Below, one piece after another: positions 3,431 through 6,900 of a stretch of DNA of 64,000 bases. The stretch is from Bacteroidia bacterium (GTDB lineage Bacteria > Bacteroidota > Bacteroidia > SpSt-205): positions 1 to 64,000 of the forward strand of contig JANXCX010000011.1 in assembly GCA_025059535.1 (NCBI GenBank). Direction: 5' to 3'. The position numbers were made by a program, and so were the translations under genes. Numbering within the stretch: the stretch's first letter is position 1; the number at the start of each line of letters is the position of its first letter. The notes beneath the pieces were generated by a model. The model made no database searches. It saw only the letters and a list, made by a program, of their open reading frames with translations, and was not told the DNA's origin.

Positions 3431-4651
3431 TTAGCCGGCCGCTCGGAGGGGCTTTAGACGCTGCTGGACGAAGTCCTCCGTGATAAGAAGGTGCGCGCCT
3501 TTGGGCCGGGTGAAGAGGAGGTCCTCCAGAATAGTTTCTAAGAGGCTGCGGAGGGCTCGGGCACCTGTGCCTATTTCCAAGGCCGCGCGGGCCAGCGCGC
3601 GGAGGGCCTCTTCGGTAAAGTCCAGCTGAATCCCATCCCAACTCAAAAGCGTTTGGTACTGCCGCACTAAGGCATTTCTGGGTTCGGTAAGGATGCGGTA
3701 GAGGGCTTCTTCGTTTAGGGGCTCCATCGCCGCTATGATGGGCAGCCGGCCGATAAATTCGGGTATGAAGCCAAACTTGCGCAGGTCCTCAGGCTGGACG
3801 TAGGCGTAGAGGGATTCAGGCCTTTCCTCCAAGCTGCCGGCGCGGCGAAAGCCTACCACCTGGCGGCTCAGCCGCCGCGCAACGATTTTGTCAATCCCTT
3901 CAAATGCCCCGCCGCAGATGAAAAGAATATTCTCGGTATTTACTGGGATGAAGCTCTGTTCGGGGTGTTTGCGGCCACCTTTGGGAGGTACGTTCGCTAC
4001 GGTGCCTTCTAAGAGTTTGAGGAGAGCCTGCTGGACCCCTTCCCCGCCCACATCGCGCGTGAGGGAGGGGTTTTCCGACTTGCGGGCAATCTTATCAATT
4101 TCATCAATATACACTATGCCAATCTGGGCGTACTCTACCTCGTAGTCGGCAGCTTGGAGTAGGCGCACGAGGACGTTTTCTACATCCTCGCCTACGTAGC
4201 CGGCTTCGGTGAGCGTCGTGGCGTCGGCGATCGCAAAGGGCACCTCCAGAAACTGGGCGATAGTGCGGGCCAGAAGGGTTTTGCCCGTCCCGGTGGGGCC
4301 TATGAGTAGGATATTGCTTTTCTCCACCCGTACAGGGGGAGGCTGATCGGGATGGGCCAAAAAGGCCGCAATGCGACGATAGTGGTTATAGACGGCAATA
4401 GCCAGCTTGCGCTTGGCGGATTCCTGTCCTACGACGTAGGCATCTAAGTAAGCCTTGATTTCGGCGGGGGAGGTCTGCGGCATTTTCCAATTGCGCAGCC
4501 GCAGGCCGCGCCGCGAGGCCTTAGCCGCCTCGTATAGGTACTGGACGCATTCCAAGCAGATGTGGGCTGGCTTTAGCGGTGAGGCGATAAGGGGTACTTT
4601 CGGGTTAGCCTTGCCGCAGAAATCGCATCTGGGCGCTTCAGAGGGTCCCAT
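3431..4651 (-). CDS. clpX: ATP-dependent Clp protease ATPase subunit ClpX
   Basis: ClpX is the AAA+ unfoldase that feeds substrates to ClpP. The 406-residue product begins with the zinc-binding domain (CDFCGK at ~10-15, HICLEC at ~29-34). It then has the Walker A motif GPTGTGKT, the pore loop GYVGEDVE, Walker B 'IVYIDEID', the RKH loop ('RKHPEQ') and sensor/arginine-finger segments ('[10 protein letters not shown]'). I place the start at ATG 4651 ([13 protein letters not shown]), because the longer frame starts far inside clpP. The start overlaps the end of clpP by 14 nt, in line with translational coupling. It is the last gene of the tRNA-tig-clpP-clpX unit. Confidence 0.95.
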
Positions 4652-5336
4652 CGCGCGCGGGCGGCCGAAGCACCTCGTCAATTATTCCATAGGCCTGGGC
4701 CTCATCGGCCCGCATCCAATAGTCGCGATCGGAATCTTTCCAGATTTTCTCGTAAGGCTGGCCCGTGTGGTAGGCCAGAATTTCGTAGAGCTCACGCTTG
4801 ATGCGCTGGATTTCGGCATGAACGATTTCAATGTCGGAGGCTTGGCCTTGGACGCCGCCTAGGGGCTGGTGAATCATCACGCGCGCATGAGGCAGGGCGG
4901 CACGCCGGCCTTTCCGCCCCGCAGCTAAAAGAATCGCCGCCATAGAAGCCGCCATACCCGTGCAAATCGTATGCACGGGGGGGCTTACATACTGCATGAC
5001 ATCGTAAATGCTCAGCCCATCATACACCGAGCCGCCCGGACAATTTATGTATATGAAGATATCCCGCTTTTTATCGGCCGATTCCAGAAAGAGCAGCTGG
5101 GCAATCACGATATTGGCTATCTGGCTATCTATGGGATAGCCAAGGAAAATAATGCGATCCATCATAAGGCGGGAAAAGACGTCCATGACGGCGATATTGA
5201 GCTGACGCTCTTCAATGATATTCGGGGTAAGGCCATAGAAAGTGTGGCGCAGGCGCGCTTCGTACTGGTCTAGGCACAGGCTACTCAGGCCATGCTCGGC
5301 CTTAGCGTATTTGCGAAACTCCTCGCCTAAGGTCAT
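4638..5336 (-). CDS. clpP: ATP-dependent Clp protease proteolytic subunit ClpP
   Basis: ClpP is the self-compartmentalised serine protease partner of ClpX. The catalytic triad is visible: Ser131 in 'GMAASMA', His156 in '[10 protein letters not shown]' and Asp205 in 'DRDYWM'. With the start at ATG 5336 the protein has 232 residues, including a ~30-residue N-terminal stretch ahead of the usual '[24 protein letters not shown]' core, slightly longer than the common ~200. The start codon overlaps the tig stop as ATGA, which decides it over a longer in-frame alternative inside tig. Confidence 0.95.
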
Positions 5337-6670
5337 ATTAGGTATAAAAATAGGGTTTCTGCTGAGATGGGGTGGGTCTGAGAAGGGCCTAGGCGCTGGG
5401 TTAGCCATTCTTGGAAGCGGGCTTGCTGGAGGGATTCTTTGAAGGTATCGCCACTCTTTTGGAGCAGATGGCGGAGTGCGGTCTGACGCTCTTCTTCGGC
5501 GTTTTCAAGTCTTTCCAGCCAGGCTTGCGCTTCTGGCGAGAGGTTAGGCGCCTGCTTGAGGCGCTCCCACAGCTTCTCCTGCATTTCTTCTTCGGATACT
5601 TGGAGCTCGGGCATGTGCTCGGCGTAGCTGGCAAAGAACACCCGCCAGGCTAAGTCCTCCTTGTACTCGCTATAGGGGCGCGGGTGGCCATTTTGACCTG
5701 ATCGGGTGCGTAGGTAGAGGAGATAGTTATAGTAAGCCAGGTCTTCGGGAATAGTTACGCCCGCGGCTTTCAGAAGCTGCTGGCGTTGAAGGCGGCGGTT
5801 GAGGCGGTGAAGCGTACGCTCAGTTAGGCGGTGGAGCAGCTCCACCCAGAGGGCCTCTGGCTCGGCACGTTCTTCTGGGCTAATCTCCAGCTGCTCTAAA
5901 ACCTCCTCTAAGTTAGCCGGTTGTACTAAAGCAGCCGAGGCTACGCTCAATTCTACGGTGGAGCTGGGAAGCGTCAAGGGCGAGAAGTCCGGTTCCTCTA
6001 AGCGGATGAGGTCAGTGTAGGGTACGAGGTGGGTTACTGGCAGGGAAAATTTCTCGCCTAAGCGCCGTCCCGTTAGCAGTTCCCACGGAAAGGGCTGGAT
6101 GAGGGTATTCCACGGCAGGCGCAGGGGCGCTTTTTCGGCACGCTCCCAGAGGAGGCGCACGATTAGCCCCCGCTCAGCCGGCACGGAAGCCGGAAGCTCC
6201 TCCAGCGGCTCCAGCTTACCGAAGATTAGCCGCAGAAACTCCTTGTAAAGCTGTACATCGGCGGGGTTAGGCTGATAGGTATATTCCATGAGGCGCACTT
6301 CCCCCAGGGGTAGCGGCTGGTCGGGCACCGTCAGAAACCGCACCTGATACACATAGTCTGGAAAAGGCGGCTGGGGATGAAGCTTCTCTGGGGTATGGGC
6401 ATAGTAAGGGAGGCCTATAAGCTTGCGATTCCCAAGGGTATCCCGCAGGGCCTCAAAGAAATGCGTAAGCAGTACGTCAGTGAGTAGGGACTCGCCTTGG
6501 CGAGCCATGATTACTTCCGCTGGCACCTGACCGGGCCGAAAGCCGGGAAGTACCAGCTCCTTGCGCAGGGCTCGGATGCGCTCCCGGTAGCGCGGGCCAT
6601 ACTGCGCAGCGGGTAAAACTACCTCTCCCTCCCCCAGATAAGGCTTGGGAAACCTTATGGTAGCTGGCAC
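5333..6670 (-). CDS. tig: Trigger factor, ribosome-associated chaperone
   Basis: Trigger factor binds ribosomal protein uL23 near the exit tunnel and folds nascent chains. The product (445 residues from GTG 6670) carries the ribosome-binding signature '[10 protein letters not shown]' at ~41-50, the same distance from the start as in E. coli. The rest is a long helical, Glu/Leu-rich C-terminal domain, typical of divergent Bacteroidota trigger factors; a PPIase domain is hard to recognise by eye. Starting at GTG 6670 places the codon 3 nt after the 3' end of tRNA-Leu; longer frames would run into the tRNA. It is translationally coupled to clpP by ATGA. Confidence 0.9.
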
Positions 6671-6673
6671 AGG

Positions 6674-6755
6674 TGCGGATGGAGGGACTCGAACCCTCAA
6701 CCCTTTCGGGACCAGATCCTAAGTCTGGCGCGTCTGCCAATTCCGCCACATCCGC
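6674..6755 (-). tRNA. tRNA-Leu (anticodon UAG)
   Basis: An 82-nt class II tRNA. The acceptor arms GCGGATG/CATCCGC pair fully. The anticodon stem CCAGA/TCTGG holds loop CTTAGGA (anticodon UAG), the variable arm is TCCCGAAAGGG, and the T arm contains GGTTCGAGTCC. The discriminator is A. The following bases are CCT, so CCA is not encoded. It is followed after 3 nt by the tig GTG. Confidence 0.95.
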
Positions 6756-6756
6756 G

Positions 6757-6829
6757 TGGCACCGGCGGGACTCGAACCCACATTTGGAGTTTAGGAAACT
6801 CCCGTTCTATCCTGTTGAACTACGGCGCC
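6757..6829 (-). tRNA. tRNA-Arg (anticodon CCU)
   Basis: A 73-nt tRNA. Acceptor GGCGCCG pairs with CGGTGCC (one G-U). The D stem is GTTC/GAAC. The anticodon stem GGAGT/ACTCC encloses loop TTCCTAA (anticodon CCU), and the T stem is GTGGG/CCCGC. The discriminator is A and CCA is not encoded. Only one nucleotide separates it from tRNA-Leu. Confidence 0.95.
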
Positions 6830-6834
6830 TCTGA

Positions 6835-6842
6835 CAAAGGTA
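6835..6842 (-). promoter_or_regulatory. -7 promoter element for the tRNA-tig-clpP-clpX unit
   Basis: TACCTTTG on the minus strand ends 5 nt before the first base of mature tRNA-Arg. With the usual spacing, transcription would begin at or next to the tRNA 5' end. Confidence 0.65.
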
Positions 6843-6888
6843 GAGAAAAGCCGCCAGTAAAGGGCAGTCAGCTATCCGAGAGAGTGGC

Positions 6889-6896
6889 TACCTTTG
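6889..6896 (+). promoter_or_regulatory. -7 promoter element for the oxygenase gene at 6901
   Basis: TACCTTTG is followed by GGGG and the ATG. The predicted mRNA is leaderless. Confidence 0.65.
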
Positions 6897-6900
6897 GGGG

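Follow-up and report, generated by a model that had tools for sequence, protein, structure and literature searches.

Within the window (the whole stretch of DNA that was analyzed, 64,000 nt), which comes from a 1.9 Mb genome in 25 contigs (G000; GC 0.556 in the sampled part), the minus strand carries a compact unit of tRNA-Arg(CCU), tRNA-Leu(UAG), tig, clpP and clpX (Table 1). A first-pass annotation had placed the GTG start of tig (6670) 3 nt past the tRNA-Leu discriminator base (A6674) with no encoded CCA, and had described clpP and clpX as following by overlap. Both descriptions agree with the sequence: exactly 3 nt (C6673, C6672 and T6671) separate the discriminator from the GTG, reading CCT in place of CCA, and the downstream genes join through an ATGA and a 14-nt overlap. 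At the upstream end of the unit, TCAGA lies between the -7 box (6842-6835) and the start of tRNA-Arg (6829) on the minus strand. A promoter inside tRNA-Leu, which the annotation had named as a possible source of a longer tig leader, was also looked for; no TAnnTTTG box was found within tRNA-Leu when the minus strand was scanned over 4600-6900, and no sigma-70-type promoter was matched in 6550-6900. RNA structure at the tig start is ordinary (z -0.66).

Table 1. Features of the tRNA-Arg/tRNA-Leu/tig/clpP/clpX unit and of the divergent gene upstream of it (window coordinates).
Feature	Coordinates	Strand	Basis or remark
-7 promoter box TACCTTTG (Bacteroidota)	6835..6842	minus	no other TAnnTTTG between 6900 and 4600 on this strand
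Predicted transcription start	6830	minus	4 nt past the box, 1 nt ahead of tRNA-Arg; +1 spacing from PMC6847099
tRNA-Arg(CCU), discriminator A6757	6757..6829	minus	ARAGORN; Rfam RF00005, 64 bits
1-nt spacer C between tRNA-Arg and tRNA-Leu (position 74 of tRNA-Arg)	6756..6756	minus	sequence
tRNA-Leu(UAG), discriminator A6674, single copy in the genome	6674..6755	minus	ARAGORN; Rfam RF00005
CCT junction, tRNA-Leu to tig	6671..6673	minus	entire tig leader if cut after the discriminator; 2 nt if cut after C74
tig, divergent trigger factor, 445 aa, GTG start	5333..6670	minus	GTG at 6670-6668
clpP, ATG start at 5336	4638..5336	minus	overlaps the tig stop (ATGA)
clpX, ATG start at 4651	3431..4651	minus	14-nt overlap with the clpP end
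-7 box TACCTTTG of the divergent gene	6889..6896	plus	ATG 6901 is 4 nt on, an example of a predicted 0-nt leader

The protein read from GTG 6670 matches Trigger_N with 43 bits (cut-off 22) and contains PGFRPGQVP at residues 42-50, and its identity as trigger factor is further supported by the position of the gene ahead of clpP and clpX. The product is very divergent: Pfam matches its N-terminal domain only, and its TIGR00115 score, 47 bits, is far below the cut-off of 180. The N-termini of the tig products from ten family relatives align from the GTG 6670 codon or two residues later. The next in-frame start lies 147 nt past the discriminator and would lose PGFRPGQVP; a later start was rejected because this conserved N-terminal motif would be removed, which leaves no plausible version of the downstream start that the annotation had considered as an objection. 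TTG 6700 was rejected as a tig start because it falls within the mature tRNA-Leu.

In Flavobacterium, the -7 box has been described as spanning T-12 to G-5 (PMC6847099), and the transcription start is therefore the fifth base after the box. Promoter geometry was sampled over 302 kb of the 1.9 Mb source genome, with an ORF finder and no gene caller, and was compared with a single-contig relative (G005) and with a control, a complete genome from another order (G052). The next start codon is 4 nt away from the box in 26 of 61 cases in the source genome and 12 of 30 in G005 (0/20 in the control), and 3-7 nt away in 44/61, 22/30 and 2/20, respectively; when the starts are aligned, the box sits exactly at -12 to -5 relative to the start codon. 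Taken together with the Flavobacterium spacing, the 4-nt peak predicts leaderless promoter-led mRNAs in the source genome, most often with a leader of 0 nt. The first-pass annotation had regarded a 3-nt leader as the usual promoter geometry; the commonest value is instead 0 nt (distance 4). Promoter leaders in a sister family, represented by G012, are intermediate, at about 0-7 nt.

We analyzed the tRNA junctions of tig, dxr and prs across the order of Bacteroidia to which the source genome belongs, whose named members are uncultured and which was represented by 13 genomes. The order tRNA-Arg(CCU), tRNA-Leu(UAG), tig is kept in 11/11 family genomes with tig. Aligning the tRNA-Leu/tig junction in related genomes, a comparison that the annotation had proposed, places the tig start 1-3 nt after the tRNA-Leu(UAG) discriminator in 11 of the 12 genomes of the order that have tig. 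The start is TTG at 1 nt in seven genomes and GTG at 1 or 3 nt in three, while in G012 it is an ATG at 2 nt whose A is the A of an encoded CCA; the exception, G008, has a spacer of 10 nt with AGGAGG ahead of the ATG. These junctions hold at 1-3 nt although the proteins are merely 35-53% identical to the tig product of the source genome. The dxr gene starts with TTG 1 nt after tRNA-Val(CAC) in 10/10 genomes, and prs starts 4-5 nt after tRNA-Gln in 10/11, with 10 nt in G012. Elsewhere in the class, tRNA-Leu(UAG) often precedes tig too, at a distance of tens to >100 nt, and a hairpin and T-run often lie between them. A separate search for the 16S rRNA gene (RF00177) returned none in six genomes of the order (G000, G002, G005, G009, G010 and G012) and two in the control; the single-contig G005 is among the six, and the gene may be filter-missed or unusual.

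Close apposition of tRNAs and start codons extends well beyond tig. We scored each cluster-terminal tRNA as one unit and called it juxtaposed when a same-strand ORF started 1-11 nt downstream; 19/33 units qualified in the source genome, 12/34 in G005, 8/25 in G012 and 0/37 in the control (Fisher against the control, 1e-8 for the source genome and 4e-5 for G005). The 12 juxtaposed units of G005 involve the same tRNAs as in the source genome and similar proteins, with spacers within 2 nt. By Pfam and NCBIfam, the juxtaposed ORFs of the source genome include Dxr, ribose-phosphate diphosphokinase, LigA, SecE, L25, fructose-bisphosphatase, OsmC, DUF2480, PhoD, an RNA methyltransferase and an outer membrane beta-barrel protein. 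The start positions are independently supported, since the profile matches begin at residue 1-10 in Dxr, FBPase, L25, Prs, LigA and DUF2480. One ORF of 70 aa lying 6 nt after a tRNA (contig 25, position 33591) was set aside as spurious and excluded from the counts, since the ORF that comes next is longer and has a box of its own. In both genomes, a similar small protein without a Pfam family (65 aa at contig 5, 84207 in the source genome; 67 aa at contig 1, 740986 in G005) begins 4 nt after tRNA-Leu(UAA). Judged from the conservation of the junction together with these genome-wide counts, the abutment of tRNA and start codon at tig is beyond chance.

No TAnnTTTG was found inside the 43 tRNAs of the source genome or the 44 of G005. 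In the two genomes combined, a -7 box stands at the start of 0/31 juxtaposed genes and of 12/17 genes lying >11 nt from the tRNA, mostly 3-7 nt before the start codon; eight of these 12 boxes are exact, whereas the others differ at one position and a few could be fortuitous. Downstream of tRNA-Val(GAC), tRNA-Cys and tRNA-Arg(CCG), the source genome has a juxtaposed ORF and G005 a separated gene with its own box. Juxtaposition to a tRNA and possession of a promoter box are thus complementary ways of arranging a gene start. T-run terminators are largely missing behind the tRNAs of the source genome, where T-runs follow 5/33 tRNAs versus 29/37 in the control. Start codon usage also differs between the two arrangements: behind tRNAs, TTG and GTG are frequent (TTG in every dxr), and 0-nt promoter-led genes have mainly ATG; in the two genomes, ATG makes up 15/31 of the former starts and 33/43 of the latter (Fisher 0.015, with orthologues that are not independent). 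The TTG and GTG starts may serve to slow translation of mRNAs transcribed from strong tRNA promoters.

The tRNA-Leu(UAG) gene is single copy, and its transcript must therefore be cut at the 3' end. An RNase Z is encoded, scoring 296.6 bits for NF000801 (cut-off 252) and falling below the TIGR02651 cut-off (271 versus 293 bits), and the metal-binding motif SHLHADHVSGLPG is present. The canonical RNase Z cut site is after the discriminator, which would speak against a cut one base further on, as would the junctions of 3-5 nt. A cut after C74, by RNase Z or by another nuclease, is a version of the processing model that we regard as possible but hold only tentatively. It would turn the 1-nt junctions, the commonest length for both tig and dxr, into leaders of exactly 0 nt, and the CCA enzyme would then add only CA. 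In its favor, a C follows the discriminator in 42/43 tRNAs of the source genome, 43/44 of G005 and 46/46 of the control, though CCA is rarely encoded; in the source genome the spacers of tandem tRNAs (1-3 nt) always start with this C and some consist of it alone. Cleavage of CCA between its two Cs has also been reported in the actinobacteria Streptomyces and Propionibacterium.

We consider it highly probable that tRNA punctuation with leaderless mRNAs, operating in a bacterium, explains the tRNA/tig junction. The single -7 box before tRNA-Arg would drive co-transcription of tRNA-Arg, tRNA-Leu, tig, clpP and clpX, and tRNA-Leu(UAG) would be excised from the transcript by RNase P and an enzyme that cuts at the 3' side, for which the encoded RNase Z is the likeliest candidate. 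The product of the 3' cut would be an mRNA beginning CCU-GUG, or CU-GUG if the cut falls after C74, so that under either cut the 5' end of the tig mRNA is predicted to lie 2-3 nt ahead of the GTG. Ribosomes of this lineage would start at 5'-terminal start codons and translate from the cut end; such a product would be a normal ribosome substrate because promoter-made mRNAs have predicted 0-nt leaders. Translation of clpP and clpX would follow by overlap coupling behind tig, and equivalent processing may take place at about 19/33 tRNA units of the source genome. A processing-made tig end is supported by the conserved junctions, the lack of a box in tRNAs, the single-copy tRNA-Leu(UAG), the presence of RNase Z and the predicted leaderless character of the genome. 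On these sequence-based grounds, mRNA 5' ends with almost no leader are most likely produced when tRNA 3' ends are processed, probably by RNase Z.

The proposal in the first-pass annotation that tRNA maturation forms the tig 5' end is therefore borne out in part: the near-absent leader is supported by sequence and comparison, and the single case that it described is real, but it belongs to a genome-wide habit across unrelated genes and is not specific to tig. Its further suggestion, of a chaperone mRNA whose access to ribosomes is controlled by tRNA maturation, is not supported; no sign of regulation was seen, and unrelated housekeeping genes have the same tRNA arrangement.

Two other accounts of the junction were weighed. 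Spacers may simply have shrunk everywhere, with tig translated by internal initiation from an uncut tRNA-mRNA precursor, and the spacers of 1-3 nt between tandem tRNAs of the source genome are what such compaction would also produce. Some of the short spacers could indeed stem from genome compaction alone. As an explanation of the tig junction we find this improbable, since the single-copy tRNA-Leu(UAG) must be excised and most transcripts would gain a new 5' end anyway, and on the uncut RNA the folded tRNA directly abuts the start codon, leaving a ribosome no single-stranded leader. Compaction is also at odds with the constancy of the tig junction across such divergent proteins, and with the box that most non-juxtaposed genes own at the start codon. 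We give even less credence to an alternative-sigma promoter within tRNA-Leu that would supply tig with a longer leader of tRNA sequence. Although other sigma classes exist in Bacteroidota (PMC9723704), the scans described above returned neither a TAnnTTTG box in the tRNAs of the two genomes nor a sigma-70-type promoter around the junction; tRNAs are constrained in sequence, and many different tRNAs show the pattern. Punctuation by tRNA processing remains the reading that we prefer.

Several known systems resemble parts of this arrangement. In the thrU-tufB operon of E. coli, a tRNA and an mRNA share one transcript and the mRNA retains a leader with a ribosome-binding site; the tRNA-mRNA operon is common to both, whereas the leader here would be 0-11 nt. 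The closest parallel is tRNA punctuation in animal mitochondria (Montoya, Ojala and Attardi 1981, as cited in PMC4633059). There as here, tRNAs abut ORFs with no room for a leader (19/33 and 12/34 units; 11/12 genomes for tig, 10/10 for dxr and 10/11 for prs); in the present genomes, no -7 box, the promoter class examined, lies in the tRNAs or at the juxtaposed starts. RNase P and RNase Z free mitochondrial mRNAs with no leader or almost none, as is predicted here, and mitochondrial ribosomes accept 5'-terminal start codons, as those of this lineage presumably would. Mitochondrial tRNAs define the 3' ends of mRNAs too, and the majority of genes rely on them; the present case differs in being a bacterium with many promoters, in which many genes have their own and tRNAs would set 5' ends only, with operons running on downstream, as tig does through its overlaps into clpP and clpX.

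In leaderless (TA-led) bacterial genes, the box and the start codon are about 12 nt apart (PMC3160421; PMC4633059), a spacing that puts the transcription start on the start codon, as predicted here. Unlike the ends proposed behind tRNAs, theirs come from transcription, and tRNA is not mentioned in PMC3160421. In Nanoarchaeum equitans, RNase Z maturation of the tRNA in a tRNA-C/D box sRNA dicistron is said to give the RNA that follows its 5' end automatically (PMC3491384); this organism belongs to the Archaea, and what follows the tRNA there is not an mRNA but a small non-coding RNA. Described members of the phylum have few leaderless mRNAs, unlike the prediction for the source genome: about 3.7% of 5' UTRs are reported to be under 10 nt in B. 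thetaiotaomicron, 5.5% of mRNAs to be leaderless in F. psychrophilum, and leaders to exceed 10 nt in 87% in F. johnsoniae. Within the open-access literature consulted, we came across no description of bacterial leaderless mRNAs that arise through tRNA processing. Relative to that literature, the bacterial setting for punctuation is new, while mitochondrial punctuation and transcription-made leaderless bacterial genes were already known.

Across the order, we think it likely that tRNA maturation is a general second route, beside leaderless promoters, to translatable leaderless 5' ends, a counterpart of mitochondrial punctuation that arose with leader loss; leadered relatives, the intermediate sister family and the leaderless family form a series for that loss. 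Initiation in the phylum has been described as leadered and Shine-Dalgarno-free, and this lineage of Bacteroidota is predicted to depart from that pattern. Punctuation by tRNAs is usually regarded as an organelle peculiarity. If it also operates in a leaderless bacterium, then leaderless initiation would be what permits it, and housekeeping mRNAs (tig-clpP-clpX, dxr, prs, secE and ligA) would depend on tRNA maturation for their supply. These bacterial genomes would then offer a place to test leaderless mRNAs that RNase Z makes and that start with GUG or UUG.
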